Of a stretch of DNA of 64,000 bases, positions 996-59,697 are shown piece after piece. Under the pieces are notes generated by a model that was given only the letters and a program-made list of their open reading frames with translations, had not been told where the DNA came from and ran no database searches. The position numbers and the translations under genes were made by a program. Location of the stretch: the NCBI RefSeq assembly GCF_002934265.1, contig NZ_PTIX01000004.1, forward strand, positions 248,001 through 312,000. Direction: 5' to 3'. The number at the start of each line of letters is the position of its first letter. The stretch's first letter is position 1. This stretch comes from Actinokineospora auranticolor. GTDB lineage: Bacteria > Actinomycetota > Actinomycetes > Mycobacteriales > Pseudonocardiaceae.

Positions 996-1678
996 ACCCA
1001 CGCGCAGGTGCGGATCCCCGTGTCGTGATCGCCGACGACCAGGCCCTCGTCCGCACCGGTTTCCGGATGATCCTGGCCTCCGGCGGCATCGACGTCGTCG
1101 GCGAGGCGGCCGACGGGGTCGAGGCGGTCGAGGTGGTCCGCGCCACCCGCCCGGACGTCGTGCTCATGGACATCCGCATGCCGACGCTGGACGGCTTGCG
1201 GGCCACCCGGCAGATCCTCGCGTCCGTGCCGTGCCGGGTCCTCATGCTCACGACGTTCGACCTCGACAAGTACGTCTACGAGGCGCTGGCCGCGGGCGCC
1301 AGCGGTTTCCTGCTCAAGGACGTGACACCCGAACACCTCGTCAACGCCGTGCGCCTGGTCGGCACCGGGGACGCGCTGCTGGCCCCGTCGATCACCCGGC
1401 GGCTGGTCGAGCGGTTCGCCGCGGCCGTCCCAGCCGTGCCCGCCATCCCGGCCGCGCACCGCGACCTCGGCGGTCTCACCCCGCGCGAGCTGGAAGTGCT
1501 GCGGCTGCTGGGCAAGGGGCGGTCCAACGCGGAACTGGCCGTGGAGCTGACGCTGAGCGAGGCCACGGTGAAGACCCACGTGGCCCGCATCTTCGCCAAG
1601 CTGAACCTGCGGGACCGGGCCCAGGCCGTCGTCCTCGCCTACGAGACCGGCCTGGTCGCGCCCGGCGACAGCGCCTAG
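992..1678 (+). CDS. NarL/LuxR-family response regulator
   Basis: A 228-residue regulator. The receiver domain has acidic Asp15/Asp16, the phospho-acceptor Asp60 in VVLMDIRMP, and Lys109 in GFLLKDV. A short Ala/Pro-rich linker leads to a LuxR helix-turn-helix (LTPRELEVLRLLGKG to VKTHVARIFAKLNLRDR). The GTG start at 992 shares bases with the kinase stop. It is the cognate partner of the upstream kinase. Likely targets are its own promoter and the divergent ABC transporter at the window edge. It ends tail-to-tail with the MFS gene; the two stop codons overlap through CTAG. Confidence 0.95.
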   Translation: MNPRAGADPRVVIADDQALVRTGFRMILASGGIDVVGEAADGVEAVEVVRATRPDVVLMDIRMPTLDGLRATRQILASVPCRVLMLTTFDLDKYVYEALAAGASGFLLKDVTPEHLVNAVRLVGTGDALLAPSITRRLVERFAAAVPAVPAIPAAHRDLGGLTPRELEVLRLLGKGRSNAELAVELTLSEATVKTHVARIFAKLNLRDRAQAVVLAYETGLVAPGDSA

Positions 1679-2919
1679 GCCGCTTCCCGGCTGTCCGTCG
1701 GCGCCTCGGCGGGCGCGGGGGCCGAGGCCGCGGAATCGTTGAGGCGCCCCCACATCAGCCCGGCGGGCACCGCGATCAGCACGCCGAGCAGACCCGCCAG
1801 CGCCACCGTGGTCATCGCCGAACCGATCAGCTCGGCCACCAGACCGCCCAGGGCCACACCGAGGCCCTGCGACACCCGCAGCCCGGTCCGCGCCGCGCCG
1901 AACGCGCCACCGCGGATCTCGTTGGGCACCAGCGTGTTGAACACCGCCATGACCGTGATCTGGTACGCCCCGACCGCGCCCGCCAGGAACAGGACCACCA
2001 GCGCCGCGGGGAGGCTCGGTTTGACCGCGAACAGCACCAGGAAGCCGACCGAGGCCGTGGCCAGCACCCCGATCAGCCGCGGTCTGTGCCGGGCGGGGAC
2101 GAAGTGCGAGATGGCGAACGTGCCGAGGATGAAGCCCAGCGGGTCCGCGGCCAGCAGCCAGCCCACCGCCTCCGGCGCCGCACCGGCCTCCTTCGCCAGC
2201 GGTGCCGCGAGACCCTCGGGGATGACCGCGAGCCCCACCAGCCACGAGAGCGTCAGCAGCACCCGGAGCTTGCGGTCGCCGAACACCCACTTGGCACCGT
2301 CGAACCACCCGTCGTTCTTGGAACCCGCGGGCGGGCGGTTGACAACGTTGCGCCACGTAAGGAATGCGGCGATCGTGAACGTACCGGCGTCGATTATCAG
2401 CGCCCACGACGCGCCGATCGCGCTCACCAGCAGACCGCCGCCGCCGAGGCCGAGCAACATGGTCGTGTTCGTGGTGATGCCGCGCAGGTCCTGGCTGCGC
2501 ATGTACATCGCGTCGTCGGTGTAGATCTCCCGCAGGGTCGCGTTCTGCGCCGCCATCGCCGGGGACTGCACCATCGGGACGATGATCACCAACAGGAACA
2601 GCGCCCACAGCGGCATGTGGGGAATCGCCATCAGCGCCACAACGGCCGCCTGCAGCAGCGCGCACACGACCATCAGGTTGCGCCGCCGGTAGCGGTCCGC
2701 CAGCTGCGAGAGCCCCAGGCCGCCCGCGAGCGCGGGCAGGAACGTCAACGCGTAGATTCCCGCCGCGTAGAACGCCGAACCGGTGCGCTGGTAGACCAGG
2801 ATCGCCAGCGCCACCCGGGTCAGCTGGTCGCCGCCGACGGACACCGCCTCGGAGAACCAGAGCGCGCGGAACTCGCGGTCCGCGAGGACCGCCGACATCC
2901 TGGGTGCGGCTCGGCTCAC
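1675..2919 (-). CDS. MFS transporter (putative drug/metabolite exporter)
   Basis: A 414-residue major facilitator with about 12 hydrophobic segments. The early motif ALWFSEAVSVGGDQLTRVA and the loop QLADRYRRRNLMV after the second or third helix are typical of the MFS_3 (enterobactin exporter-like) group common in actinomycetes. I chose the GTG at 2919, because GGGAG lies 6 nt upstream; an ATG seven codons later is possible. Substrate is unknown. The open frame extends much further upstream but that part is not transporter-like. It ends convergently against the response regulator. Confidence 0.85.
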   Translation of the reverse strand: MSRAAPRMSAVLADREFRALWFSEAVSVGGDQLTRVALAILVYQRTGSAFYAAGIYALTFLPALAGGLGLSQLADRYRRRNLMVVCALLQAAVVALMAIPHMPLWALFLLVIIVPMVQSPAMAAQNATLREIYTDDAMYMRSQDLRGITTNTTMLLGLGGGGLLVSAIGASWALIIDAGTFTIAAFLTWRNVVNRPPAGSKNDGWFDGAKWVFGDRKLRVLLTLSWLVGLAVIPEGLAAPLAKEAGAAPEAVGWLLAADPLGFILGTFAISHFVPARHRPRLIGVLATASVGFLVLFAVKPSLPAALVVLFLAGAVGAYQITVMAVFNTLVPNEIRGGAFGAARTGLRVSQGLGVALGGLVAELIGSAMTTVALAGLLGVLIAVPAGLMWGRLNDSAASAPAPAEAPTDSREAA

Positions 2920-3302
2920 GTGTGCTCCCGTCCGACGGGCGGTGGCCCGCGCGGCTGACTCCATCCTCCGCACCCGGGGTCTGGGTGCGGTGAACCCGGT
3001 GTTCACTCCTGCCGCTGGGTCATCGCGGCGTCGCACAGAGTACCGGCTGAACCGCCCCGCATAAGTACTTGTGAAGTTTCCTCGGCCCGGAAATCCGGGC
3101 GATGCGCCCGTCCGGCGCAACAGGGGTGACCGGTCCGCGCCTACCGGCGCGCTGAACGGACGAGCGCGCTCGGCGCAGTGCGCGGCCCGCTCGGCGCCAC
3201 CACCGGAGTCGGTGGGGGATTTTCCGGCCAAACCGCTCGACACTGGCCACCGAACCGGTGCTCGTGGTGACCGGTTTGTCGGGGCTGGCGCGGGAAAACG
3301 GG
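2920..3302. other. Divergent intergenic region of MFS and SDR genes
   Basis: No credible gene. It holds the divergent promoters of the MFS and SDR genes, the inverted repeat at 2990-3006, and a self-complementary AAGTACTT in a short AT-rich patch around 3060-3080 that could be a promoter core. Confidence 0.5.
2990..3006. promoter_or_regulatory. Inverted repeat upstream of MFS gene
   Basis: GTGAAC-CCGGT-GTTCAC, a perfect 6-bp inverted repeat with a 5-nt spacer, about 70 bp before the MFS start codon. It has the form of a dimeric repressor operator, but no regulator gene is adjacent. Confidence 0.3.
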
Positions 3303-4193
3303 GTGAGCCGGATGGACGGCAGGGCGGTTGTCGTGACGGGCGCGGGGCGCGGGTTGGGCGAGGCGTTCGCCGAGCACCTGGCCGGGGTCGGCGCGGCGGT
3401 GGTGGTCAACGACGTGGACGCCGAGCGGGCCCGGCTGGTGACCGCGCGGATCCGCGCGAACGGCGGTGCCGCGGTGGCCAGCGAGCACTCGGTCGCCGAC
3501 CCGGAGCAGGCCGCGGCCATCGTGGACCTGTGCGTCGCCGAGTTCGGCGCGATCGACGGCCTGGTCAACAACGCGGGACTGAACTACGAGGCCCTGCCGT
3601 GGGAGGACGACCCGGCGCGGGTCCGCGCGGTGGTCGAGGTCAACGTGCTCGGCGTGATCTACACGGGCCTGGCGGCGATCCGCCGGATGCGGGCCGCGGG
3701 CAGCGGGTCGATCGTCAACGTGTCCTCCGGCGCCTCACTCGGCCAGCGCACGCTCGGCAGTTACGCGGCGACGAAAGGGGCCGTGTCCTCGCTGACCTCT
3801 TCGTGGGCGCTCGACCTGGAGGACTCGGGCATCCGGGTGAACGCGATCTGCCCGAGGGCCTACACGCGGATGGTGTGGACGTCCGAACGGGCCAGCAGGC
3901 AGACGCCGCCCGAGCACACGCCCGACCTCGTGGCACCCGTTGTGCACTTCCTGTTGGACGACGACCGCTCCGGCGGGATCACCGGTCAGGTCGTGCGCTG
4001 CACCGGCCCGGAGTTGCACGTGGTCGGTCAGCCGTACCTAAAAGCCCCGATCCTGCACCGGGACCGGTGGGACGTCGAGACTGTCACGACCGCCTTCGCC
4101 GAGGTGCTCGGCGGGCACCTGGAGCCCTACGGGTTGGAGAAGCGGCCGCCCGCCCGCCTGCGGAAGTGGTTGGCACCGATGCGCACCGCGTGA
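3303..4193 (+). CDS. Short-chain dehydrogenase/reductase (SDR)
   Basis: A 296-residue NAD(P)-dependent oxidoreductase of classical SDR type. It shows the Rossmann glycine motif (VVTGAGRGLGEAFA, near the start), the NNAG motif, and the catalytic Ser (IVNVSSGAS) and Tyr/Lys pair (SYAATKGAV), then a proximal IRVNAICPRA segment. The C-terminal 60 residues past the SDR core are longer than in FabG-like enzymes and resemble 17-beta-HSD4/MFE-type hydroxyacyl dehydrogenase relatives. GTG 3303 and ATG 3312 are both plausible starts. Substrate cannot be stated. Confidence 0.85.
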   Translation: MSRMDGRAVVVTGAGRGLGEAFAEHLAGVGAAVVVNDVDAERARLVTARIRANGGAAVASEHSVADPEQAAAIVDLCVAEFGAIDGLVNNAGLNYEALPWEDDPARVRAVVEVNVLGVIYTGLAAIRRMRAAGSGSIVNVSSGASLGQRTLGSYAATKGAVSSLTSSWALDLEDSGIRVNAICPRAYTRMVWTSERASRQTPPEHTPDLVAPVVHFLLDDDRSGGITGQVVRCTGPELHVVGQPYLKAPILHRDRWDVETVTTAFAEVLGGHLEPYGLEKRPPARLRKWLAPMRTA

Positions 4194-4570
4194 GTCCGGT
4201 CACCTTGCGTCGACGAGGTTCGGAAGATCACTATCTCCGGTACCTCTGTTGGGGTCACGCCGGGTCCGGCGAATGCCCGAATCGGTTCGGCGACACGTCC
4301 GAGTAATGTCGTGCTCCATTCGGGCGCTGCTTGGCGTAGCGGGGTCGCTACTGTCGGCGCAGGACGTACCGTGGAGACAGTGGTGGCGCACGGGTTCCGC
4401 CGGGGCTCGTGACACACGGCAAGAGTGGTACGCGATGGTACGGACGAGCCGGTTCGACGCGTTTCGGCGCGACACCGGGAAGAGGGACAACCCCTCCGGC
4501 CACAGCCGCGTCCCCTGGGGCGCGGTCGCCGGAGCGGTCGGGGATGGAGTTCGGAGAGGAGGCAGCACCG
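4194..4570. other. Leader region upstream of repeat-bearing GGDEF gene
   Basis: About 375 bp without a convincing gene. It contains TAATgtcgTGCTCCATTCGG at 4304-4323, a word nearly repeated at 38984-39003 before a small ORF. A perfect AGGAGG at 4557-4562 closes the region and sets the downstream start. I looked for c-di-GMP or c-di-AMP riboswitch signatures and saw none. Confidence 0.4.
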
Positions 4571-7500
4571 TTGGGTCTCACCGATCGCGGAGACGGACGG
4601 ACAGCGCCTCTGTCGGGGCTCCAAGTGCCGGTTCCGCCAGTCTCCGGTGGGGACACCCGGGAGGGCGGTAGCGAGGGCGCTCGCGGTCAGGTGGACCGGG
4701 GCGAGTGGACTACCAATCGCGGCTGCGCAGCGGGCGCTCCTGTCGGTGTGGACGGTCCCGTGGGGGACGGTTCCGAGGGTTGTGTGACGCAAATCACCAG
4801 TCGCGAGACATCTGCGGCTCCTTCGGGGGACGTGTCGGACGGTGTGGGGGACCGGGTCACCAATCGCGGCTACGCACCGGGGGCTCCTTCGGTTCGAGGG
4901 GTGGACGGGGACGTCGACGCCGCACTCACCAGTCGCGGGACATCGGGCACTCCTGACGGTCTCGGTTCGGACGGGACGGGGGCTGTGGTCACCAGTCGCG
5001 GGATATGCGCTGCTCCGGTTGCTGTCGGTGCGGACGGGGTTGCCGGTTCGCTCACCAGTCACGAGACATGCGGGGCTCCTTCGGGGGTACTCGGTTCGGA
5101 TGAGGCCTCTGCTGCGTTCACCAGTCGCGGGACATCGGGGGCTCCTGTCGATCTCGGTTCGGACGGGACGGGCGGTTCGGTTACCAGTCGCGGGACACGG
5201 GGGGCTCCTTCGGGCGTGGTCGGTTCGGACGAGGTCTCTGCTGCGTTCACCAGTCGCGGGACATTCGGCGCTCCTTCTGCTCTCGATTCGGGCGGTTCCG
5301 TCGTCGTGGTCACCAGTCGCGGGACATCTGCGGCTCCTTCCGCTGGTTCGGGCGGTTCCGGTTCGCTGCTCACCAATCACGGGACATCGGGCGTTCCCTC
5401 CCATTCCGGTTCCACTGGGCTCGAAGCGGGTCTCACCAGTCGCGGGACATCCGGGGCTCCTTCTGTTCTCGGTTCGGACGAGGACTCCGCTGCGGTTACC
5501 AGTCGCGAGACATTCGGCACTCCCTCTGCGCTCGAATCGGACGAGGTCGGTTCTGCGGTCACCAGTCGCGGGACATCTGCGGCTCCTTCTGGTCGTGGGG
5601 CGGGCGGATCGGAGAACGGGGTCACCAGTCGCGGCTGCGCATCGGGCGCTCCTTCTGTGGTCGGTGTGGACGGTCGCGGCTCGGGGTTCACCAGTCACGG
5701 GACACTTGGGGCTCCTCAGGGGCTCGGTACGGACGAGGTCGGGGACTCACTCACCAGTCACGGCTGCGCATCGGGTGCATCTCCTCGGTTCTCGGTCGGG
5801 TTGGACGATTCAGCTGCCACGAACGTGGTGGCCACGGGGCTCACCAGTCACGGGAACTCATGGGGTGCTCCTTCGGTTGAAGTGGACGGTCGGGACGACT
5901 CGGGGGAGGTGTGCGTGGTCACCAGTCGCGGGAACGCATCGCGGGCTCCTTTCGGCGACGACGAGGGGGCATCCGCTGGGGGTGGTTGGTCGGCGGACGG
6001 CGTAGCGGGGGGACTCACCAGTCACGGGAACGCATCGGCTGCGGCTCCTTCGCACGAAGTGGACGGCCGGGGGGAGCGGGTCGCCGGTCACGGGAGCGCA
6101 TCGCGCACACCTCCCAGGGGATCCACGCTGGACGAAACGCTTGACGGGCCCGAAGGTGACGCCGTAGCCGCGGATACCGCGCCCACGGGTGACGTACCCG
6201 CTGTGCCCGCTCCCGCATCGGGAACACCTCCTCGTGACTCGCGCCCCGAGGCCGAGCAGACCCACACCCTCCGCGACGCGGCGCGGGAGCGGAACGAGCG
6301 GCGGTTCCGGTCACGGCTAAGTGTGACCGACTCGCTCCGCAGTGAACACCCTTCGTTGGTGCGGTTGGTGCGGGGCTGGGGCCTGTGGTCGCTGCCTCCC
6401 GCCGCCAGACGCTACGTGATCATCTTCGAGCTCGTCACGCTGATCGCCGTCACGTTCGCCTTCGTGACATCCCCGGCGGCCACCGCGGCCGACTGGCGGG
6501 CGGGCGGCGTACTCGTCGGCGCGGGCATGGTCCACCTGTGGTTGACCCGCCGCACGGAGGAGACCCGGCGCGACCGCGGGCCGGGTCCGCACATGGACAC
6601 CAGCGTGGTGTGGTTCCTGCCCGCCATGGTGTTGCTGCCCGCGTGGATGGCCGTGCTGGCGCTCATGCTGCTGCGCGTGCAGCTGTACCCGGTGGCCCGC
6701 CGACCGCTGTTCCGGTACACCTTCGGCACCGCCGGGATCCTGGTCGCCGCGCTCGGCTCGTACGCGGTCGTCCGGGTCGCGGGCGTCACCGTCGACACCG
6801 CCATCGGCCCCCGTGACGTGCTGGTTCTCACCCTCGCCGGGCTCGCTTACTTCGTGCTGAACGCGCTCTCCATCGCCGGTGTGATCGCCCTGTCGGCGCC
6901 CCAGCCGACCTGGACCACGGTCATCGGCAGCCGCCGCGACAACGCGCTGGCCGCGCTCACCGTGTGCCTCGGCGTGCTCGCCGCGCTGGCCATCGCGAAC
7001 GCCTGGCTGGCGCCGCTGTTCCTGGTGCCGCTGCTGTGCGCGATGGACTGGGGCGCGCTGCAGATCGAGAACCTGCGCGGCGACGCGCGCACCGACCACA
7101 AGACCCAGCTGCTCAACTCGCGGGGCTGGCACGAGCAGGCCGGGCGGGAGCTGGCGCGGGCCAAGCGGCAGCGCGGCACCACCCTCGCGGTCGCCGTGCT
7201 CGACCTGGATTACTTCAAACAGGTCAACGACACATGGGGCCATCCGGCGGGGGACGCGGTACTGCGAGCGGTGGGGGCCGTGTTGCGCGAATCGGTCCGC
7301 CAGGGTGACGTGGTGGGTCGGTTCGGGGGCGAGGAGTTCGTGCTGTTGTTCCCCGACACCGACCTCGACGCCGCCGCGATGGTCGCCGAGCGCATCCGGC
7401 TGGGCGTCGCGGCCATGTCCGTGGCGGCCACCGACAAGCGCGGCCAGCCGGTCGTCATCGCCAACCGCACGACCTCCATCGGCGTGGCCGCCGCCACCGG

Positions 7501-7621
7501 CGACGACGCCGACCTGGAGACCCTGCTCCAGCGCGCCGACGCCGCGGTCTACGAGGCCAAGAACGGCGGCCGCGACCAGGTCCGCAAGGCCGAACCGCCG
7601 ACCGCCGAGGTCGTCGCCTGA
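4571..7621 (+). CDS. Membrane GGDEF protein (diguanylate cyclase) with long N-terminal tandem-repeat region
   Basis: A 1016-residue protein. Residues 1 to about 510 are a Ser/Thr/Gly/Ala/Pro-rich region built from a 21-residue repeat (TSRGTSGAPS-x-LGSDE). A charged linker follows, then six or so membrane helices (about 620-820) and a C-terminal GGDEF domain with DLDYFKQVNDTWGHPAGD, an intact active-site GGEEF (GRFGGEEFVLLFPD) and the end motif ADAAVYEAKNGGRDQV. The I-site RxxD is not obvious. The domain should make cyclic di-GMP from two GTP. Start: TTG 4571 has a perfect AGGAGG 8 nt upstream and is in frame, so the repeats are probably translated. The usual-size membrane GGDEF core could instead start at GTG 6323, which lacks a ribosome site. 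Repeat codons end in T/A far more often than the rest of the window. Confidence 0.8.
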   Translation: MGLTDRGDGRTAPLSGLQVPVPPVSGGDTREGGSEGARGQVDRGEWTTNRGCAAGAPVGVDGPVGDGSEGCVTQITSRETSAAPSGDVSDGVGDRVTNRGYAPGAPSVRGVDGDVDAALTSRGTSGTPDGLGSDGTGAVVTSRGICAAPVAVGADGVAGSLTSHETCGAPSGVLGSDEASAAFTSRGTSGAPVDLGSDGTGGSVTSRGTRGAPSGVVGSDEVSAAFTSRGTFGAPSALDSGGSVVVVTSRGTSAAPSAGSGGSGSLLTNHGTSGVPSHSGSTGLEAGLTSRGTSGAPSVLGSDEDSAAVTSRETFGTPSALESDEVGSAVTSRGTSAAPSGRGAGGSENGVTSRGCASGAPSVVGVDGRGSGFTSHGTLGAPQGLGTDEVGDSLTSHGCASGASPRFSVGLDDSAATNVVATGLTSHGNSWGAPSVEVDGRDDSGEVCVVTSRGNASRAPFGDDEGASAGGGWSADGVAGGLTSHGNASAAAPSHEVDGRGERVAGHGSASRTPPRGSTLDETLDGPEGDAVAADTAPTGDVPAVPAPASGTPPRDSRPEAEQTHTLRDAARERNERRFRSRLSVTDSLRSEHPSLVRLVRGWGLWSLPPAARRYVIIFELVTLIAVTFAFVTSPAATAADWRAGGVLVGAGMVHLWLTRRTEETRRDRGPGPHMDTSVVWFLPAMVLLPAWMAVLALMLLRVQLYPVARRPLFRYTFGTAGILVAALGSYAVVRVAGVTVDTAIGPRDVLVLTLAGLAYFVLNALSIAGVIALSAPQPTWTTVIGSRRDNALAALTVCLGVLAALAIANAWLAPLFLVPLLCAMDWGALQIENLRGDARTDHKTQLLNSRGWHEQAGRELARAKRQRGTTLAVAVLDLDYFKQVNDTWGHPAGDAVLRAVGAVLRESVRQGDVVGRFGGEEFVLLFPDTDLDAAAMVAERIRLGVAAMSVAATDKRGQPVVIANRTTSIGVAAATGDDADLETLLQRADAAVYEAKNGGRDQVRKAEPPTAEVVA
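4578..6110 (+). repeat. Degenerate in-frame tandem repeat, period mostly 63 bp, about 22 units
   Basis: Units begin with TCACCAGTCGCGGGACAT or close variants at 4578, 4710, 4794, 4857, 4926, 4989, 5052, 5118, 5181, 5247, 5310, 5370, 5433, 5496, 5559, 5622, 5688, 5751, 5841, 5919, 6015 and 6081. Spacings are 60, 63, 66, 69, 78, 84, 90, 96 and 132: every one is a multiple of three. The middle of the array (4794-5751) is regular; the flanks are more diverged. Units share a conserved first half and a variable GGTTCGGACGAG-type second half. Confidence 0.9.
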
Positions 7622-7992
7622 GTGCCCGGTTGTTCTCCGAATGAGACCTGACCGATCCGGACAGTCCCACTGATCGGGACGCCGACTGCCCCCAGGGTCG
7701 GCTGCCGCTCGGAATCACGGCGGCTCGCCCGCCCCTTGGTGCAGTCTTCGGCGACGAGTACCAGGATCGCCCGCCGTCCCATTCGTTCTCCGGGGCGGCG
7801 GATCCCCCATGATCGCCGGAGTGGGTTCGACGACGATTTCGCCGTCGGTCGGGAAATGATCGCGCGCGCGATTTTCGCGTGTCGTGGAAGTCGATTCGGA
7901 ACAGGCCGGAAAAGTGTTCCGCGGGCGCGCGACCGTTCAGCGTTGCGGCGTCGGTGCGGATTCGTCTCGGGTCCCGTAGTGGCACGGACGCA
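7622..7992. other. Intergenic region, GGDEF gene to protease terminator
   Basis: About 370 bp between convergent genes. Frames are open but show no family or codon signal. The stretch around 7830-7920 is slightly AT-richer. I see no gene or RNA in it. Confidence 0.5.
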
Positions 7993-8033
7993 CGGCACCG
8001 GCGGGGATTACCGTGACATCCCCGCCGGTGCCG
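7993..8033 (-). terminator. Strong hairpin terminator of the streptogrisin-like protease gene
   Basis: A perfect 15-bp stem (CGGCACCGGCGGGGA and its complement) around an 11-nt loop. It begins 6 nt after the protease stop codon and has no long T-run, as is common in actinomycetes. It may also stop transcription from the GGDEF side. Confidence 0.8.
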
Positions 8034-8039
8034 GGTCAA

Positions 8040-9509
8040 CTACGGGCGCGTGACCCGCAGCGTGTAGCTGCCGCCGCCGCTGTAGGCGTGGACCTGCCAG
8101 CGGTAGTAGCCCGCGGTGCCGGAGTAGGACACCGTCTCGCTGTTGGTCGGGGTCGTCCCGCTGGCCACGTTGGCCCAGGCCGAACCGTTCCACTTCTGCA
8201 GGTACAGGTCGAAGTCCGTACCGGCGGGACCGGTCAGGCAGCCGCGGTGGGTGCCCGACGCCGTGGTCTGGTAGTAGCTGTTGCCCGGCTGGATGGCGCT
8301 GCCGCCACCGGCGAGGGTGCCGGTGTAGGCGGTGCCGGTGCAGTTGCCGGGCGGGGTGGTCGGTGGGGTCGTGGTCGGCGGGGTGCCGCCACCGTTGGTG
8401 ACCAGGGTCAGCCCGTACGCCTGCAGGATCTCGTTGACCGGCTGGAAGTACGTGGTGCCGCCGGAGGTGCAGTTGCCGGAACCGCCGGAGGTCACGCCCT
8501 GGGCCTGGCTGCCCGAGATCGCCGACCCGCCGGAGTCGCCCGGCTCGGCGCAGACGTTCGTGCGGATCAGACCCGTGATCGTGCCCTCGGCGTAGGTGAC
8601 CGAGGCGTTGCGGGCCGCGATGGTGCCGCAGTGCCACCCGGTCGTGGAACCGGAGCGGCAGATCGACGAGCCCACCGGCGCGTCGGTCGACCCGGCCACG
8701 GCCACCCGGCCGCCGGAGTAGTTGTTCACCGCGCCGACCGGGGTGTTGCCCGCCGCGACCCGCACGAAGGCGTAGTCGTTGCCGGGGAAGCTGGATCCGG
8801 CGAAGGAGCCGCTCGGCTGGGTGGTGGACGCGCCGCTGGTGCCGCAGTGCCCGGCGGTGACGAACCCGCCGTTCACCGAGAAACCGACCGAGCAGCGGGT
8901 GCCGCTGCCGATGTAGTACGCGTTGCCGCCGACCACGTCGATCAGCTTGCGCGGCGCCTCGTCGGAGGCCTCCACGCTCACCGCGTCGGCGGGCACACCG
9001 CTGGCCGCGACGAACGCCCTGGCCGCCGCCAGCGCGGTGCCCCGGGACTTGAGCACGATCCGGTTGCCCGGCAGGTCCACGTACCAGCTCGCCACGGTGC
9101 GCGGGCTGCGCGCCTGGTTCGCGTCGAGTGTGGCCTTCAGCTCGTCCAGTTGGGCCTCGGTGCGGCCGACCACGACCGCGTCGGCGCCCGCGGCGCGGGC
9201 CGTGGCGGCGGCGGAGTTGTCCGTGACGCCGACGACGAGCTTGCCCCGGCCCGCGTCGTACCACGTACCACCCAGCCTTCCGGACAGCTGCTTGCGCAGC
9301 GTCCGGTCCGCCTTGCCCGCGCGGTCCTCGTTGGACAGCCGCGCGGCGGCCCGCGCGGCGTCGAGTCCGAGGTCCCGCTGCATCGCCGCGCTCATGCTTT
9401 CGGCCGCCGCCGGGGCCGATGGCGCGGCCTCGGCGGATAAGCCCACCGCGACGACCGCGCCCCCGGTCGCCACGGCGGCCGCGAGCAGGGCTGTGATTCG
9501 TCTTGCCAT
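8040..9509 (-). CDS. Secreted streptogrisin/alpha-lytic-type serine protease (S1E) with C-terminal PPC-like domain
   Basis: A 489-residue preproenzyme. A signal peptide (about 1-28) is followed by a long alpha-lytic-protease prodomain (about 35-195) needed for folding. The mature chymotrypsin-fold domain starts near IDVVGGNAYYIGSG and has the triad His in TAGHC, Asp in PGNDYAFVRV and Ser in EPGDSGGS. A Pro/Thr linker leads to a C-terminal beta domain of about 95 residues (FDLYLQKWNGSAW, YYRWQVHAYSGGGSYTL) that looks like a bacterial pre-peptidase C-terminal domain instead of the chitin-binding module of streptogrisin C. AAGGAGAA lies 6 nt before the ATG. It is exported and acts outside the cell. 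Confidence 0.93.
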   Translation of the reverse strand: MARRITALLAAAVATGGAVVAVGLSAEAAPSAPAAAESMSAAMQRDLGLDAARAAARLSNEDRAGKADRTLRKQLSGRLGGTWYDAGRGKLVVGVTDNSAAATARAAGADAVVVGRTEAQLDELKATLDANQARSPRTVASWYVDLPGNRIVLKSRGTALAAARAFVAASGVPADAVSVEASDEAPRKLIDVVGGNAYYIGSGTRCSVGFSVNGGFVTAGHCGTSGASTTQPSGSFAGSSFPGNDYAFVRVAAGNTPVGAVNNYSGGRVAVAGSTDAPVGSSICRSGSTTGWHCGTIAARNASVTYAEGTITGLIRTNVCAEPGDSGGSAISGSQAQGVTSGGSGNCTSGGTTYFQPVNEILQAYGLTLVTNGGGTPPTTTPPTTPPGNCTGTAYTGTLAGGGSAIQPGNSYYQTTASGTHRGCLTGPAGTDFDLYLQKWNGSAWANVASGTTPTNSETVSYSGTAGYYRWQVHAYSGGGSYTLRVTRP

Positions 9510-40071: not shown

Positions 40072-40962
40072 ATGAACCGTCACCTCGTTCGCATCGTGAC
40101 CGCCCTCGCGACGACGAGTGTGCTGGCGACCACCGGCGCGACCATCGCCTCGGCCGCGCCCGCGCGCGACGGGGTCACGGCGGCCCAAGTCGTCGAGCTG
40201 ACCACGGCCTACCGCGCGCTCTACGACGCCGCCGGGGACGACGCCGCGCTGGCAGGCCGGGTGGGCGAGCTGCGCGACGTGCTCAACCACGTGCGCGGCT
40301 GCGGCGTGACCGACCTCGCCGACCCGGCGGACGCCAAGGCCGCCGAGGTGCAGAACATCCTGCCGCTGCCGGGCCCGATCAACCCCGACCTGGTCTGGGC
40401 GCTGCTCGACCTGGCCCAGTCGCTGGCCGAGGCGCTGATCAGCGTGCTGCCCCCGGGCACCCCCGGGATCCCGGCGCTGCCCCAGCTGCCACCGCTGGTC
40501 GGCGCCCTGCCCGACGTGACCGCGCCCGACCTCACCACGCCCACGACCCCGGACGTCACGGCTCCTGATGTCACTGTCACCGTCCCGGACCTGACGGCGC
40601 CGGAGGTGACCGCCCCGGACCTGAACCCGCCGGACGTCGCGATCCCGGAGCTGACGCCCCCCATTGTGACCGAACCCGACGCGACCGACACGGACGCGAC
40701 GGACACCGTCACCGACGTCACCGGCACCGACGTGACCAACACCGACGCGACCGACACCGCCACTGACATGACGGGCACCGACATCAACGGCACCCACTTC
40801 ACCGACGTCACCGGCACCGTCGCCGGCACGGACACCACTACGACCACGCACACCGGCACGGTGGACGCGCTGCTCCCGGATGAGTCCGACCTGAGCGGCA
40901 TCCCCGGCCTGCCCGCGCTGCCCGGTGGCCCGGTCGACGTGACCGGCGGCCCCGCGCGGTAG
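40072..40962 (+). CDS. Secreted Thr/Asp/Pro-rich repeat protein, unknown function
   Basis: A 296-residue exported protein. The signal peptide (about 1-29, ending ASA) is followed by a helical domain of about 90 residues with two Cys-free helices and a single CG pair region (VELTTAYRALYDAAGDD, LRDVLNHVRGCGVTDL). Next are a Pro/Leu segment, a PDVTAPD-type repeat (about 150-200), a TDATDT/TDVTGTD repeat (about 200-265) and a Gly/Pro tail. No sortase signal or membrane anchor is seen. It may be a wall-associated or extracellular matrix protein; no family recognised. Confidence 0.7.
   Translation: MNRHLVRIVTALATTSVLATTGATIASAAPARDGVTAAQVVELTTAYRALYDAAGDDAALAGRVGELRDVLNHVRGCGVTDLADPADAKAAEVQNILPLPGPINPDLVWALLDLAQSLAEALISVLPPGTPGIPALPQLPPLVGALPDVTAPDLTTPTTPDVTAPDVTVTVPDLTAPEVTAPDLNPPDVAIPELTPPIVTEPDATDTDATDTVTDVTGTDVTNTDATDTATDMTGTDINGTHFTDVTGTVAGTDTTTTTHTGTVDALLPDESDLSGIPGLPALPGGPVDVTGGPAR
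40540..40860 (+). repeat. Protein-level low-complexity repeats (PDVTAPD then TDATDTxT)
   Basis: Imperfect hexa- to octa-peptide repeats in which Thr and Asp alternate. DNA copies are diverged in codon choice, so selection seems to act on composition, not on DNA sequence. Confidence 0.7.
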
Positions 40963-48107: not shown

Positions 48108-48920
48108 GAGAAGATCCCCCATTAAGATCCCCAAGAAACCCGCGGCCCACCCGCGAGTACCCGACGCCTCAGCGTCTGCAATAAGAGATGCGCACCCACC
48201 CGCCAAGTTCGCCCACTGTGACCCAACTCACGGAACCGAACAAAACCCCAGGTCAACCCTCGTCTTCACCACCATCGCGCACCCCGTCACCCCTGCCGCG
48301 CCCAACGCAACCCCAATTCCCAAACCGTTACCAAGCCTCAAGCACGCCTCAACATCAAATAGATCAAGATCTCAACCCCCAAACGGCAACAACCACCCTC
48401 AAACAATTCCCACCACAAGCCCGCCCAAAACCTCTCTCGACAACCAAGAAAACGCCCAACCCAAACCGCCCCCACCCCACCGCCCCCACCCACCCACGCC
48501 AGTCACCCCACGCTGCCCATCCCCACAGGCTCGTGGTCGCGCTCACTGGTTCCGGCGCCTGCCCAAACATCCGCCCCCACAAGGCCCGCATCCACAGGCA
48601 CCCCGCACGCAGGCCCCCACGCCCACCCCCGCGCATCCGCGCAGCCCCGCATCCGCCCGCGCTCTCACGCTCCGCACAGCCCCGCTCCTGCTCCTACGCT
48701 CCTGCGCATCCCCATCCACGCAGCCCCGCTCCCGCTCCGCGCTCCCGCTCCGCGCGGCCCGCATCCGCAGTTGCCCCGCCTTCGCGCCCACATCTGCCCC
48801 TGCGCCCACATCTGCCCCTGCGCCCACATCTGCCCCTGCGCCCATACCTGCCCCCCGCTCGGGGGTCCGGGGGCGCAGCCCTCCGGGCGGGCCTGGGGTT
48901 GCACCCCAGAAAAAAGACGA
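48108..48920. other. Long G-poor, repeat-rich non-coding region
   Basis: About 810 bp with no credible gene. From about 48190 to 48530 the plus strand is almost only A and C (minus strand G/T-rich). From 48550 to 48780 it is built of short GCATCCGC and GCCCCGCTCC-like words. It ends in an 18-bp tandem repeat (48784-48854) and the tRNA-Arg 3' G-rich element (about 48857-48910). Confidence 0.6.
48784..48854. repeat. 18-bp tandem repeat, about 4 copies
   Basis: GCGCCCACATCTGCCCCT occurs three times without change at 48784, 48802 and 48820, then a diverged partial copy at 48838. Perfect copies imply recent slippage. Confidence 0.9.
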
Positions 48921-54450: not shown

Positions 54451-57400
54451 GTGGCGGCCTGGAACGAGTTACCGGCGGAGGGGTCGTCCCCGTCCCGGTG
54501 CGCGGAGCTGGTGGACGCGGCCGAGCGGCTCCGGGGCGGTGCCCCGGAGCTGGCGGTCCAGTTCGCCGCCCGGGCGCTCACCTCGGCGGCGGTCGAGGCC
54601 GCCACGGTCACCAGGGCGCAGGAGCTGCTGGGCACGCTGCTGGTCAAGCTGGGCAGGCACGCCGAGGCGGTCGAGCCCGGCTTGGCCGCGCTGCGCGCCG
54701 TCACCGGCGGCGGCCAGGTCGACCGGGCGGCGGTGCTGCGGGTCGCGCTGGCGGCCTGCGCGCGGGTGCTCGGCGAACCGCTCACCGGCTGCGAGCTGCT
54801 GCGGCCGGTACTGCGCGCCACCGGCACCCGGCCCGCCGGTCGGGCGCTGGCGCTCGGCCAGTTCGTCGCGTGCGCCGCGCACGTCGGCAACCGCGACGAC
54901 CTGGAAGACGCGCTGGCCGAGGCCGACCGGCTCTTCGCCGCCGACGGGGACACCGGCCAGGACGGCCGCCGGTTGGAGCGGTCGCTGCTGTGCGTGCGGG
55001 CCGCCTCGTACCACCGCCGCCACGGCGACACCGAGGCCGCCGCGGAGTCGGCCCGCGAGGGTCTCGCGCTGCTCAACCGCATGTCCGACGCCGAGGCCGA
55101 GGGCGGTCTGGCCCGCTCCCGGCTGGTGCTGGAACTGGTCTGCGCCCTGCTCGACGACGGCGACCTCGACGAGGCGGGCCGGGTCGCCGCCGTGGCGCTG
55201 GGCGAACCCGTCCGCGCCACCTCCGCGCTGGCCCTGGGCAGGCTGCGGCTGGCCATCGCCACCCGCGTCCTGCTGCCCTCCGGCCGCGCCGAGTCCGGGC
55301 GGATCCTGCTCACCGAGGTCGTCCGGGTGGCCGAACGCCACCACCTCGACTCCCTGCTCACCGACGCGTGGACGTTCCTCGCCCACGCCGAGGAGGAGGC
55401 CGACCACCCGGTCGAGGCCCTGCACGCCCTGCGCTCCGCGCGCGCCGCCGAGTACCGCTACCTCCGCGCCGCCCAGTCGGCGAAGTCGCTCTTGGTGGCC
55501 GAAGTCGGTGCCGTCCACGACCCGGCCACCGCCGTCGCCGCCCTCCGCAACGCCGTCCGCCCGGTCACCGCGGTCCCCGCCAAGACCAGGCCCACCACCC
55601 CGACACCGGCCGCCGAGGAGCAAAAGCCCGCGACGGCCACCTCGGCCCCCCTCTCCCGACGCGCAACCCGAGGCGAGGACACCGCCCCCTCGGTGCGCGC
55701 GGTCACCGACCCCGGCACCGAGCAAGACGAAGAACCCCGCACCACCCCCCTGACCGGGACCGCACCCGCCACCCCATCCCGACCGCGCAACGACTCGGGG
55801 GCCATCGCACGGCGCGCGAAACGGGACTCGGATTCCGCGGCCACCCCCGCGGTGCCCGGCACCCCGGCGTCCGCTTCCGCGCGGACCCGCGATTCGGCCG
55901 TCGTCTCCCGGCGGGCCGAGCGGGCCACGGGCCCGGAGGCCCCGACTCGCGCGCGCACCAGCGCGTCCGGGGCGACCTCGCGGCGAGTCATCACCGAACC
56001 GGCCCCGGACGGGGAGACGTTCGCCGTGACGCTGGTCCGGGTCGGCCCCAAGGGCGTCGCCGAACCGATCGAACCCGAGGAACCACCCCTTCCGGTAGGC
56101 GGCGAGGTGTCCCTCAACGCCCTCGCCATCCACGTCCGGGCCCTGGCCCCGGCCAACGCCGAACTGCTCCGCTCCGACCGGGGCGAGTTCGCGGTCCTGC
56201 TGCCCGACACGTCCCTGGACACGGCCGACCGCCTGGCCACCGCGATCCGCGAGACCGCCACCGAGGCCCAGTGGCTGATCGACGACCACGGCCAGGAACT
56301 CACCATCACCACCGGCACCGCCGCCGCCCCCGGCACCCCGGACGGCCCGACCACCGGCATCGACGCCCTGCTGGCCGCCGCCCGCCGCGCCATGGCCGTA
56401 CCGGAGCAGTTGACCCCGGCCCCCGCCGTCCTGCGCCGCACCGACCGCCTGGACCGCACCCCCACCACGGCGAAAACGGTCCCGCTCGACCCGGACACCC
56501 CCACCCCACAGCCCACCACGCCCCCGCCTGCCCCCACAACGGCCGCGACCACACCGACGGCCCCTTCCAACTCGGCCACCGGAACCCACACCGCACAGAC
56601 CACCCCCCACGCTCCGACATCGACCCCCACCACCGACGCCGCACACGCAGCCGCGGCGCCGATAGCCCTCCCCGGCCCGGCGACTGGCGCCCACGCCGCC
56701 CCCGCGTCACCACTCACCACCGATGCGGCAACCGGCACCCACGCCGCTCCCGCCGCACAGACCACCCCCCACGCCTCGACGCCCACCCCGATCGCCGACG
56801 CGGCGCGCACGGCTGCCACGCCGTTGAGCGCCCCCGTTGCGGCGAGCGGGGCACATGCCGCTCCCGTTCCACGGGCAACCTCCACGCCAACGAGCGCCCC
56901 CGGCGCGGCTACCGGAACCCACGCCGCGCAGGCCACCTCGCACGCTTCGACGTCGACTCCGATCGCTGACGCGGCGCAGGCGGCACACACGGCTAGCGCC
57001 CTTGGCGCGGCGACCGGGGCGCACGCCGTTCCCGCAGCGCAGGCCACCTCGCACGCTTCGACGTCGACCCCGATCGCCGACGTGGCGCAGGCGGGACACG
57101 CGGCTAGCGCCCTGGGCGCTGCGACCGGGGCCCACGCCGTTCCCGCTTCGCGGGCAGCCTCCTTCGCGTCCGCGCCGACCGCCGTCGATGCGATGCTCGC
57201 CACGCCGGTCGTGACCGGGGCGCACGATGCTTCCGCCTCTCGCGCCACGGCCGACGCGGTGCCCGCCGCGCCGATGGAACCCGCCATCGGCGCGCACACG
57301 GCTTCCGCTTCACACACGACCTCCCCCGCCTCCACGTCGGCACCCACCACCGACGCGGCAGCCCATGCCGCCGGGCCGGACCGCGGGTCAGGCGCATTCG

Positions 57401-59697
57401 GACACACCGGCGAGCACAAGCGTTCCCACCCGGCCGCCCCCCCGGGTGGAGACCTCGCGGATGTGGCTGTGCCCGACACACCAACGGACGCCGCGCCCCT
57501 TGGTCATGCGGACCAACCCGCACACACGGCCACACCGGGCTCCGCCGCGAACTTCGCTTCCGGCGCGCACCGGATTCCCGCCGGGGAGACCCCCGGGGTG
57601 TTCGGCCCCCAGGCCAACCCCGAATCCGACGGCGGGCGGCGAACACACCGGTCAGGGGCGTTCAGCCGGGAGATCGACGCGGCCCAGGTACGCAGGCTGA
57701 CCGGCGGGGTCCGGCGGGAAAAACCCGTCGAGCCCCGGCCAAGCGGGATCGAGGCCATCCTCGAAGGCAAGGAAACCACCGCCAGCCGCGAGCTACGCGA
57801 CTCCGGCTCCTGGACGCGGTTGACCCCGGAGGACAGCGCCCCGGTGTGGCCGCAGGACTCCGGGTCGTTCCGCCGACCCGTCCCGCAAGCGGACAACGCC
57901 GAGACCACCCCCGACCCCTCCGCCCCGGTCGGCAGGCGCGCCGCGCGCCGGGCCAAGGCCGAGGAACCCGTCGAGAAGTCCACTTCGGACGAACCCACCG
58001 CGGGCGCCCAAGCCGTGCTGAGCCGCTTCGGGGTCACCGCCGAGGGCGGCGGCCGCCGCAGGGCCCCCGAGGACGACGACTACTACTACGACCCCAACGC
58101 TCTCGTCGGCACTGATCTGCCTTCCCCGCCGATGCTGCCCGCCGCCTCGCTGGCCCCGGACAGCGACCTGTGGTCCGAGGACGACACCACTCCCATCCCC
58201 GCCGACACCGTGCGCGCCCAGGACTCGGGACTCCTCCCGAGGATCCCCGCCCCGGCCCTCCCGCTGGACCAGTTCTTCCTGAACTCCCAGCCCCAACCCC
58301 CAAAGCCCGACGACGTCCCGACGCCGCCCGACCGCCCGGTGCCCGACCCCTCCCAGCCGACCCCCACCGGCCCGGACCCCTTCCAACCGGAACCCGACCG
58401 ACCCGACCCCTTCCGGCCAGACCCGCCCCGGTCCGGTCCCGCTCGGCTGGACTCCACCCGGTCCGGCCCTCTCCGACCCGAGCCTGGCGGGTTGGACTCT
58501 TTTCCGTCCGACCCCACCCGGTCGGATCCCTTCCGGTCCGACTCTTCCCAGCCGGACCCTTTCCGACCCGAACTCGGGCAGCTCGACCCGGCTCGGTTCG
58601 GTCCCACCCGGCCGGACCCCGCCGAACCTGACCCCGGTCACCCCGAGCCCACCCGACCCGACCCCTTCCGCTCGGACCCCACCCGCTCGGACCCTTCCCG
58701 GTCCGGTCCCGCCCAACCCGATCCCTTCCGGTCCGATCCGACCCGGTCCGATCCCGCCCAACCCGGCCCTGGCAGGTCCGACCCTTTCCAGCCGGACCCG
58801 TTCCAGCCGGAACCCGGGCAACCAGACCCCTTCCGGCCGGACCCCACTCGTCCGGACCCCGATCAGCCAGACCCGTTCCAGCCAGACCCCTTCCGGCCGG
58901 ACCCCACTCGTCCGGACCCCGATCAGCCAGACCCGTTCCAGCCAGACCCGTTCCAGCCGGAACCCGGGCAACCAGACCCCTTCCGGCCTGATCCCTTCCA
59001 GCCGGAACCCGGTCACCCCGATCCCTTCCGGCCGGACCCCTTCCGCTCCGACCCCACCACCCCCGGCCCCCTCCGCCCCGAGGTGCCCGAACCCCCACAC
59101 CGCCCGGAGATCCCCGAGCCCCCGCTCACCCCCGCGATCCCCGACCCCCACAACCCGCCCCTCAAACGCGACACCGGGTCCATCGGGGCGGGCAGTGTCG
59201 ACTCCAGCGCGTCCGTCGCCGCCGACCGGTTGGCCAGTGACTTCGCCGCTCGGTTGCGGGGGTTGCCGCGCAACTCCGGGGTGATCGACAAGGCCGAGGA
59301 CGAGTTCCCCGAGCCCGTCGACCTGGACCGCCCCGCCTTGTCCGCGGACGAGCCCGCCGACCGGCCCGCCCTCCCCGCCCGCAGGCGGCGGTCCCCCGGC
59401 AGTCCCGGCAGCAGGCGCGAGCGCACCAACCCCAGTGGTCTGGCCGACTTGCTGGCCGAGGCCCTGGTCGCCTTCCAGGCCACCCAGTCCAACCAGGGCT
59501 GGGCCGACGAGCGGGAACCCGATCCGCCCCGCCGCCCCGCCGACGGTTCCACCTGGGCCACCGACGCCCGCGCCGCCGAGCCGGGGGAGCGGGAGACCCG
59601 GCGCGCGGACCTGTCCGGGCTGCCCACGCCGCCCGCGGGGCTGCGGGGCAGGCACCGGTCGTCGGAGTGGGCGCCCGCCGATCTGGACCACGGTTAA
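54451..59697 (+). CDS. 1748-residue TPR / degenerate GGDEF / low-complexity protein
   Basis: Residues 1-360 are helical TPR-type repeats. Residues 360-510 are a disordered linker with repeated SRRA words. Residues about 515-650 resemble a GGDEF domain in which the active-site loop reads RSDRGEFAVLLPDTSLDTADRLATAIRE; the GG[D/E]EF signature is replaced by DRGEF, so cyclase activity is unlikely. Residues 680-970 are Ala/Thr/His-rich repeats (ATGAHAVP, STSTPIADAAQ; period 37 residues in part). Residues 1300-1530 are Pro-Asp-Pro-Phe repeats (RPDPFQPEPGQP). The last 130 residues are charged. No membrane helix or signal peptide. GTG 54451 has AGGAG 9 nt upstream. It is co-directional with ettA. Confidence 0.8.
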   Translation: MAAWNELPAEGSSPSRCAELVDAAERLRGGAPELAVQFAARALTSAAVEAATVTRAQELLGTLLVKLGRHAEAVEPGLAALRAVTGGGQVDRAAVLRVALAACARVLGEPLTGCELLRPVLRATGTRPAGRALALGQFVACAAHVGNRDDLEDALAEADRLFAADGDTGQDGRRLERSLLCVRAASYHRRHGDTEAAAESAREGLALLNRMSDAEAEGGLARSRLVLELVCALLDDGDLDEAGRVAAVALGEPVRATSALALGRLRLAIATRVLLPSGRAESGRILLTEVVRVAERHHLDSLLTDAWTFLAHAEEEADHPVEALHALRSARAAEYRYLRAAQSAKSLLVAEVGAVHDPATAVAALRNAVRPVTAVPAKTRPTTPTPAAEEQKPATATSAPLSRRATRGEDTAPSVRAVTDPGTEQDEEPRTTPLTGTAPATPSRPRNDSGAIARRAKRDSDSAATPAVPGTPASASARTRDSAVVSRRAERATGPEAPTRARTSASGATSRRVITEPAPDGETFAVTLVRVGPKGVAEPIEPEEPPLPVGGEVSLNALAIHVRALAPANAELLRSDRGEFAVLLPDTSLDTADRLATAIRETATEAQWLIDDHGQELTITTGTAAAPGTPDGPTTGIDALLAAARRAMAVPEQLTPAPAVLRRTDRLDRTPTTAKTVPLDPDTPTPQPTTPPPAPTTAATTPTAPSNSATGTHTAQTTPHAPTSTPTTDAAHAAAAPIALPGPATGAHAAPASPLTTDAATGTHAAPAAQTTPHASTPTPIADAARTAATPLSAPVAASGAHAAPVPRATSTPTSAPGAATGTHAAQATSHASTSTPIADAAQAAHTASALGAATGAHAVPAAQATSHASTSTPIADVAQAGHAASALGAATGAHAVPASRAASFASAPTAVDAMLATPVVTGAHDASASRATADAVPAAPMEPAIGAHTASASHTTSPASTSAPTTDAAAHAAGPDRGSGAFGHTGEHKRSHPAAPPGGDLADVAVPDTPTDAAPLGHADQPAHTATPGSAANFASGAHRIPAGETPGVFGPQANPESDGGRRTHRSGAFSREIDAAQVRRLTGGVRREKPVEPRPSGIEAILEGKETTASRELRDSGSWTRLTPEDSAPVWPQDSGSFRRPVPQADNAETTPDPSAPVGRRAARRAKAEEPVEKSTSDEPTAGAQAVLSRFGVTAEGGGRRRAPEDDDYYYDPNALVGTDLPSPPMLPAASLAPDSDLWSEDDTTPIPADTVRAQDSGLLPRIPAPALPLDQFFLNSQPQPPKPDDVPTPPDRPVPDPSQPTPTGPDPFQPEPDRPDPFRPDPPRSGPARLDSTRSGPLRPEPGGLDSFPSDPTRSDPFRSDSSQPDPFRPELGQLDPARFGPTRPDPAEPDPGHPEPTRPDPFRSDPTRSDPSRSGPAQPDPFRSDPTRSDPAQPGPGRSDPFQPDPFQPEPGQPDPFRPDPTRPDPDQPDPFQPDPFRPDPTRPDPDQPDPFQPDPFQPEPGQPDPFRPDPFQPEPGHPDPFRPDPFRSDPTTPGPLRPEVPEPPHRPEIPEPPLTPAIPDPHNPPLKRDTGSIGAGSVDSSASVAADRLASDFAARLRGLPRNSGVIDKAEDEFPEPVDLDRPALSADEPADRPALPARRRRSPGSPGSRRERTNPSGLADLLAEALVAFQATQSNQGWADEREPDPPRRPADGSTWATDARAAEPGERETRRADLSGLPTPPAGLRGRHRSSEWAPADLDHG
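56930..57150 (+). repeat. 111-bp in-frame repeat (37 codons), 2 clear copies plus diverged flanks
   Basis: CACGCTTCGACGTCGACtCC begins near 56941 and 57052, exactly 111 bp apart. Related, more diverged words (GCGACCGGGGC, CACGCCG) continue on both sides from about 56570 to 57330. Confidence 0.8.
58350..59060 (+). repeat. Pro-Asp-Pro-Phe coding repeat with exact DNA duplications
   Basis: A run of CCGGACCCCTTCC-type words codes for (R/Q)PDPF. It includes an exact 60-bp tandem duplication (about 58822-58949) and a 36-bp exact repeat at 58801-58836 and 58951-58986. Exact copies show recent expansion. All periods keep the frame. Confidence 0.9.

Follow-up and report, generated by a model that had tools for sequence, protein, structure and literature searches.

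The stretch analysed (hereafter the window) comprised 64,000 nucleotides (nt) of contig NZ_PTIX01000004.1 from Actinokineospora auranticolor. Within it, a tandem repeat array separated a short-chain dehydrogenase (SDR) gene from the membrane and GGDEF domains of a predicted membrane diguanylate cyclase, and a gene for a major facilitator superfamily (MFS) transporter lay beyond the SDR gene (Table 1). Tandem Repeats Finder placed a 63-bp unit at positions 4926-5577 (10.3 copies, score 326), and a wider repeat search stretched the array family to about 4558-6103, the whole array covering about 4558-6110. The strict motif count gave 20 units (4710-6035), with degenerate extras at 4578 and 6081, in agreement with the roughly 22 units reported in a preliminary description of this DNA. 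That description had also reported a single open plus-strand frame through the array, unit spacings divisible by three, and AGGAGG 8 nt before an in-frame TTG, and all of these were recovered: the frame ran without a stop from GTG 4409 through 7621 and ended in the GGDEF domain, the 19 spacings between strict units (60-96 nt) were all multiples of three, and AGGAGG (4557-4562) was followed after 8 nt by the TTG (4571-4573).

On the minus strand, the same units read as GAAGGAGC, a gap of about 5-9 nt and ATG (CGN) TCN CGN GAY TGG TGA, corresponding to a Shine-Dalgarno (SD) sequence followed by a gene for the peptide M(R)SRDW. The strict pattern of SD sequence plus mini open reading frame (mini-ORF) had 14 exact matches in the window and 0 in 100 shuffles, and an ATG or GTG start was present in 18 of the 20 units. 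The reading of the array as a row of about 20 minus-strand micro-genes of 5-6 codons, each with its own ribosome-binding site, is strongly supported by the sequence, and these genes are very probably translated in the cell.

Table 1. Features at the array locus of the window.
Feature	Position	Strand	Remarks
MFS transporter, array-adjoining family, candidate peptide exporter	1675..3243	-	PF07690 5.5e-24, PF05977 2.5e-10
Short-chain dehydrogenase (SDR), syntenic neighbour	3258..4193	+	PF00106 3.7e-43
Predicted membrane diguanylate cyclase ORF, including N-terminal extension through the array	4571..7621	+	TTG start, SD AGGAGG 4557-4562
SD-preceded array, 20 units, mostly M(R)SRDW-stop mini-ORFs	4710..6051	-	strict motif
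Unit RSRDW-TAG	4710..4727	-	without ATG/GTG/TTG start, CTG just before
Mini-ORF MSRDW	4794..4811	-	
Mini-ORF MRSRDW	4857..4877	-	GTG start
Mini-ORF MSRDW	4926..4943	-	
Unit xSRDW	4989..5006	-	ATA where start codon expected
Mini-ORF MSRDW	5052..5069	-	
Mini-ORF MSRDW	5118..5135	-	
Mini-ORF MSRDW	5181..5198	-	GTG start, TAA stop
Mini-ORF MSRDW	5247..5264	-	
Mini-ORF MSRDW	5310..5327	-	
Mini-ORF MSRDW	5370..5387	-	
Mini-ORF MSRDW	5433..5450	-	
Mini-ORF MSRDW	5496..5513	-	TAA stop
Mini-ORF MSRDW	5559..5576	-	
Mini-ORF MRSRDW	5622..5642	-	
Mini-ORF MSRDW	5688..5705	-	GTG start
Mini-ORF MRSRDW	5751..5771	-	
Mini-ORF MSSRDW	5841..5861	-	
Mini-ORF MRSRDW	5919..5939	-	
Mini-ORF MRSRDW	6015..6035	-	ATG...TGA, SD GAAGGAG
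WxLW-type N-terminal membrane domain	6377..7060	+	conserved WGLW 6377-6388, three alignments
GGDEF domain with intact GGEEF active site and intact RxxD inhibitory site	7088..7579	+	PF00990 3.3e-41

The orthologous cyclases of 15 congeners were compared with that of the window (16 genomes). In the 164 units located by the plus-strand protein pattern T[SN][RH][GDEAV], the first three codons were ACC (163), AGT or AAT (163) and CGC or CAC (162), and the fourth was GGG, GAG, GGC, GGA, GTG, GCG or others. These first three codons were nearly constant at their third position and variable at their second; the variable sites were the wobble positions of the minus-strand codons TCN-CGN-GAY-TGG-stop. 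Because the units vary at the wobble sites of the minus strand and the core third positions of the plus strand are fixed, the array sequence is set by the minus strand. The GC contents at the first, second and third plus-strand codon positions were 0.70, 0.69 and 0.65 in the array and 0.73, 0.50 and 0.95 in the remainder of the cyclase. The low third-position GC noted in the preliminary description was thus seen again, but the foreign origin or fast repeat turnover offered there is not needed as its cause, since the plus-strand third positions are the second positions of minus-strand codons.

A search with CGN-GAY-TGG-stop, which selects on the motif itself and fixes the tryptophan by construction, gave 162 units in the 16 genomes, with the codons CGC (135) and CGT (27), GAC (143) and GAT (19), and TGG (162). 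The stops were TGA (147), TAA (10) and TAG (5); the starts were ATG (144) and GTG or TTG (15), with none in 3 units, and GGAG lay at most 16 nt from the start in 148 of 159 units. The codon preceding CGN was TCN, AGY, GTY, ATC or AAC. A motif-free recount by nucleotide similarity only (allowing up to 4 mismatches with the consensus) covered 178 units. At the arginine, aspartate, tryptophan and stop codons, 66 changes were silent and 30 were not, where 5 of 36 single changes are expected to be silent. Counted across the full 15 positions, changes silent on the minus strand only numbered 116, against 59 on the plus strand only, 12 on both and 89 on neither, and the codon before the arginine was the freest of the unit. 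Judged by these substitutions, the micro-genes are under codon-level selection.

A repeat acting as DNA or RNA (protein-binding sites or a structured RNA), with incidental short ORFs, would agree with the C/T-only variation of CGY and GAY. This is the least probable of the explanations considered, as the peptide is kept across unrelated flanks with different stops, the codon before CGN ranges over serine, valine, isoleucine and asparagine codons, and separate loci carry different sequences. The RNA is also less structured than shuffled sequence: a 421-nt segment of the array in the window folded worse than all 100 shuffles (z +4.5), and a small difference in the same direction was seen for array units at loci chosen by DNA pattern (mean z +0.67; 80 of 208 units). 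Rfam gave no match at gathering score in window positions 4000-8100, the one match reaching 18.5 bits with 43 needed.

The spacings of the units in the 16 Actinokineospora genomes were divisible by three in 147 of 147 cases (range 57-144 nt). In 12 genomes, which together gave 10,632 nt of array, stops numbered 0 in the cyclase frame and 35-159 in each of the five others. Upstream of the array, the 12 array-rich species had a TTG (in G012 an ATG) preceded by a strong SD sequence, 10 of them counted by motif and 2 out of the list of candidate starts. Judging by these frames, translation of the cyclase N-terminus in Actinokineospora probably runs across the micropeptide genes antisense to it, and both strands of the array would then be coding, a clear example of overlapping layers. 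To this extent the translated 21-residue repeat of the preliminary description stands, as part of a long N-terminus that is probably made; there is no demonstrated start at GTG 6323, and spacings within the genus change by multiples of three, the two points at which that description had invited refutation.

The further suggestion that selection acts on the 21-residue repeat as a cyclase domain of variable length was not supported. The open, in-phase frame of the genus and the conserved start and SD sequence agree with it, but near-invariant third and variable second positions in the 164 plus-strand units are the reverse of what a protein-coding unit, expected to vary at third positions, would show, and a protein tandem-repeat domain was rejected because selection on the plus-strand amino acids of the unit was not found. 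Outside the genus, the spacings were not locked to a frame: 96 spacings at 38 loci of other genera left remainders of 0, 1 and 2 in 19, 41 and 36 cases, and the whole array lay outside the open cyclase frame at 35 of 37 loci, the 2 exceptions being Crossiella. A lone mini-ORF also lay inside the cyclase ORF of G248. Since nearly all of the arrays outside the genus avoid the cyclase frame, the array and not the plus-strand repeat is the shared feature, and a selected protein repeat is very improbable.

A single-unit scan of 390 genomes of the family matched in 24, and a reversed control matched in 4; outside the genus, the matches in G136, G145, G171 and G248 were judged real and five others were discarded by eye. 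A two-unit DNA pattern that took no account of the cyclase matched 67 stretches on GTDB contigs, of which 45 carried this cyclase and one further had the MFS and SDR genes at the locus end. The array with its module was present in Actinokineospora, Amycolatopsis, Prauserella, Saccharomonospora, Thermocrispum, Haloechinothrix, Qaidamihabitans and Crossiella, and in an actinomycete metagenome-assembled genome. Rows of genes of 18-27 bp recur across a bacterial family. Tandem peptides of the other genera included MSSRDW, MSSRDF, MSDRDF, MSNRDF, MSGRDF and MRDRDF, among others. The 21 stretches without cyclase or MFS gene came in about half of the cases from Alphaproteobacteria, and also from Bifidobacterium, Paenibacillus and others; six units from such loci were left out of the counts given here.

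A profile of the membrane domain, applied to 298 genomes of the order, separated 40 orthologues (E <= 1e-68) from paralogues (E >= 4e-51), and the cyclase family had no match at 1e-15 in a sample of 295 other genomes of the phylum (nine candidates scored in the genomes listed). An antisense mini-ORF coding an xRDW peptide, or a close variant of one, lay upstream of all 40 orthologues, the peptide rule covering the 12 single-copy ones having been fixed after the tandem ones had been viewed. Under a peptide-blind rule, tandem mini-ORFs (at least 2) were found in 28 of the 40, and on the sense strand in 0 of 40. Sixty paralogue loci, picked by hand among the matches listed (two of them, L244 and L263, with less than 700 nt upstream), were taken as a negative control and proved not to be negative: 19 of 60 had tandem divergent mini-ORFs with other peptides, and 0 of 60 had them in the sense direction. 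The set excludes ten second copies of loci already present (L195-L204) and two paralogue loci that duplicated others (L253, L264). The paralogue peptides included MRNRAW (8), MRNRES (7), MNNWSW and variants (5), MRGWHWTR (4), MNNVTWR and a variant (4), MRTREH (3), MRDRGN (3), MLDNWRWP and a variant (3), MSNWGWGK (3) and MREKIW (2). The MRGWHWTR copies had unrelated flanks, synonymous changes and three different stops. Many paralogues had a single mini-ORF, some of these unconvincing. Tandem arrays were found in 0 of 144 tiles of the window, in 0 of 20 other GGDEF loci (hand-picked from the match list) and in 3 of 472 tiles of other sequence, these being one true array and two from loci chosen by DNA pattern.

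Several further peptides were observed. A single MNGRED mini-ORF with conserved upstream sequence preceded a paralogous cyclase in L215, L216, L217, L219 and L235 (five genomes of genus g35); as it lacks an aromatic end, the peptide class is broader than xRDW. Tryptophan-rich peptides (MSNHGW, MLDNWRWP, MNNWSW, MNNVTWR, MSNWGWGK and MRGWHWTR) occurred in other families of the order (L241, L243, L247, L249, L266, L267 and L268). The genome of the window (G000) had three more members of the cyclase family (C10, C1 and C12, loci L224, L227 and L228); one had a lone MCGDREL mini-ORF (MCGDRDL in G001) and the other two had no convincing mini-ORF.

The pairing of peptide and cyclase was assessed at 47 tandem-array loci with at least 150 residues of membrane domain, 36 of which also had an MFS fragment. 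Peptide distance tracked cyclase distance (Mantel r 0.76, 0 of 2000 permutations, 47 loci): the peptides of 111 cyclase pairs above 60% identity were 85% identical on average, and those of 821 pairs below 40% were 23% identical. MFS and cyclase distances correlated at 0.96; at the 36 loci, the partial correlation of peptide with cyclase given MFS was 0.52, and that of peptide with MFS given cyclase was -0.11. Examined family members of one genome differed in peptide, G023 having MVERDW, MRDREL, MRTREH and MRDRGN. Taken together, these comparisons make a functional pairing of the micro-genes with the cyclase likely. Copy number followed the MFS gene in Actinokineospora, where 12 of 12 genomes with it had 7-23 units and 4 of 4 genomes without it had 1-2, that of G004 being a variant; the best match anywhere in these four genomes was 38-43% identical to the MFS protein. 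In a second genus, 2 of 2 genomes with the MFS gene had 3 mini-ORFs and 5 of 5 without it had 1, G279 and G273 having been viewed after the expectation was formed. The genomes are related, and the copy-number comparison amounts to about two events.

It is also conceivable that the act of translation matters and the peptide does not, a translated antisense RNA controlling the cyclase mRNA in cis. The antisense position of the arrays upstream of, or overlapping, the cyclase (within its reading frame in Actinokineospora), the unstructured RNA and the strong SD sites would all suit such control. We consider it unlikely, because the amino acids are kept through synonymous changes and three different stops, the peptide type tracks the cyclase type, and an MFS gene often adjoins.

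The best explanation of the locus, in which we place moderate confidence, is a leaderless peptide signal formed by a micro-gene array and a divergent membrane diguanylate cyclase, often with an MFS transporter. The micro-genes would be transcribed from a promoter close to the point where the cyclase gene begins (no promoter was recognised), the ribosome would make the peptide directly and without a leader, and the many gene copies would raise the peptide dose. The MFS protein would then export the peptide, and the WxLW membrane domain would sense it and alter cyclic di-GMP (c-di-GMP) synthesis, the direction of this effect being likewise presumed. Paralogous cyclases with their own peptides would provide several separate channels per cell, and in Actinokineospora, whose cyclase genes begin before the array, the receptor gene would be read through its own antisense peptide genes. 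That the peptide is the ligand of its cyclase seems reasonably probable; its export by the adjoining MFS protein is a more tentative proposal, and the peptide may act inside the cell. Equally tentative is the fullest form of the proposal, a family of insulated channels in which leaderless penta- to octapeptides from tandem 18-27 bp genes (up to 23 copies) would each be the specific ligand of a divergent cyclase, exported by a co-evolving MFS protein and, in Actinokineospora, encoded antisense inside the receptor coding sequence. c-di-GMP controls development in actinomycetes. If true, the proposal would provide a direct peptide input into c-di-GMP signalling and many parallel receptor-peptide pairs for studies of specificity. 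A candidate ligand that can be synthesised is encoded here beside each gene.

Several observations weigh against the leaderless peptide signal or parts of it. Two units of the window lack a normal start codon. The tryptophan codon reads CGG (arginine) in 11 of 178 units, 9 of the 11 being first or last in their array, and the arginine in xRD[WF] arrays is always CGC or CGT and never CGA or CGG, which hints at an additional nucleotide-level preference. Neither a sigma-70-like promoter nor a terminator was found in window positions 4150-6450; a sigma-70-like match of at least 9/12 lay upstream of the first mini-ORF at 4 of 71 loci, compared with 1.2% in base shuffles. The SD rule found no antisense mini-ORF in 13 of the 60 paralogues and no tandem ones in 41 of 60, and five of the 13 carry an MFS gene (L209, L213, L218, L221 and L257). 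The co-variation of peptide and cyclase is due in part to common descent. Some loci with an MFS gene have only one or two copies (G022, G271, G081, G090, G093 and G037), and loci that lost the MFS gene retain one or two mini-ORFs, so export by the MFS protein is not the whole story. The cyclase of G004 is intact, yet its single mini-ORF ends in R and not W; the idea that its mutated peptide accompanied a lost cyclase was dropped because of the intact cyclase.

The literature searched, in which coverage of subscription journals was slight, contained no description of such arrays. Phr/Rap, arbitrium and other RRNPP systems comprise many parallel pairs per genome, and their peptides derive from longer exported pro-peptides and bind cytosolic receptors. 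The present system resembles them in its short peptides of 5-8 residues with presumed dedicated receptors, and differs from them in the pro-peptide origin and cytosolic receptors of RRNPP. Signals of the RRNPP class are described as processed, 5-8 residues long and provided with dedicated receptors in the consulted part of one report (PMC10518010). The same part describes leaderless communication peptides (LCPs) such as SIP of Streptococcus pyogenes, with the receptor RopB, as 8-9 residues long with their own ribosome-binding site (PMC10518010). The likeness to LCPs consists of a leaderless peptide gene with its own ribosome-binding site, divergent from the receptor gene and co-diversified with it (PMC10518010), the receptor role of the cyclase here being putative. 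As described there, LCPs are mostly aliphatic or aromatic and belong to Firmicutes with cytosolic receptors of the RopB clan, and the terms tandem, multiple copies and exporter were not found in the main text of that paper (PMC10518010). In contrast, peptides of the window type have 5-8 mostly polar residues, come in tandem (up to 23 copies) from Pseudonocardiales, and have a presumed membrane cyclase receptor and often an MFS protein. As the divergent gene encodes a membrane GGDEF protein and not a receptor of the RopB/Rgg clan, the system was not classed as LCP, although it would work most like the LCPs of Firmicutes. Short ORFs of the leader-peptide and minigene kind (lambda bar) exert their effect on tRNA or, in cis, on an adjacent gene. 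In the present system, by contrast, the peptide is conserved, and at the loci read, except L222, the next gene past the array has the opposite orientation. The minigene of axe-txe is another very short translated ORF, according to the part of its report that was consulted (PMC8708949).

The gene size has a parallel in the biarylitide precursor bytA, whose 18-bp pentapeptide genes are called the smallest known and reach up to 6 copies in one Lysinibacillus strain, according to the consulted portion of the report (PMC13417212). The MSRDW-stop units likewise encode five residues in 18 bp. If the mini-ORFs encoded precursors of a natural product of the type of biarylitide, a minimal ribosomally synthesized and post-translationally modified peptide, they would share this size and the multiple copies known there (PMC13417212), and F or W is the C-terminal residue in 29 of 49 distinct tandem peptides. 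Biarylitide formation needs a cytochrome P450 (PMC13417212, same portion), whereas the partner here is a c-di-GMP enzyme and neither a P450 nor another peptide-modifying enzyme was found among nine neighbours at two loci, the rest of the genomes not having been searched. Unrelated peptides also stand beside paralogous cyclases, and a modified product is improbable.

The GGEEF motif was invariant in 31 aligned sequences, as were R326 and D329 (first-sequence numbering) of RxxD, an inhibitory site that sits just before GGDEF in diguanylate cyclases. The window protein carries the GGDEF signature of a diguanylate cyclase and is predicted to synthesise c-di-GMP. MASE-type membrane cyclases have an N-terminal membrane sensor domain fused to GGDEF, and we know of no peptide ligand for any of them. 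The window protein shares this layout, and a start resembling WxLW is common to the cyclases of its family, but its membrane domain belonged to no Pfam family at threshold; Pfam gave only GGDEF in 9 relatives, a weak MASE9 match was seen in the window protein (E 0.075), and a sequence search of PDB with the membrane-domain profile gave one match (E 0.51).

The nearest NCBIfam models of the MFS protein were of H+ antiport or efflux type, all below cut-off. The MFS gene adjoined 30 of 40 orthologues in the original flank and 3 more with longer flanks; it was near 36 of 60 paralogues, including 12 of the 19 tandem ones, and near 0 of 20 control GGDEF loci. The SDR gene was found in 39 of 46 loci with cyclase or MFS gene among those chosen by DNA pattern, and it probably stands outside the mechanism. 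The PADLOC models of anti-phage defence gave no match for the cyclase, MFS and SDR proteins (0 of 3). Pfam annotation of nine neighbours, from Amycolatopsis locus L084 and the window, showed cyclase, MFS, SDR, AMP-binding enzyme, phospholipase-A2-like, LytR-CpsA-Psr and helix-turn-helix (HTH) genes, and a short XRE-type HTH gene lay three genes past the cyclase in L084.

Other repeats were observed elsewhere in the window. A plus-strand ORF of 1748 amino acids (54451-59697) contained, besides a stretch (RGEF) that by eye resembled a degenerate GGDEF domain, two sets of repeats, one of 111-bp units near 56922-57180 and one rich in Asp, Pro and Phe near 58341-59081. An 18-bp unit at 48784-48854 was repeated 3.9 times with 96% matches and without a convincing gene frame, and a plus-strand ORF of 296 amino acids (40072-40962) had an apparent signal peptide and Thr/Asp/Val-rich repeats.

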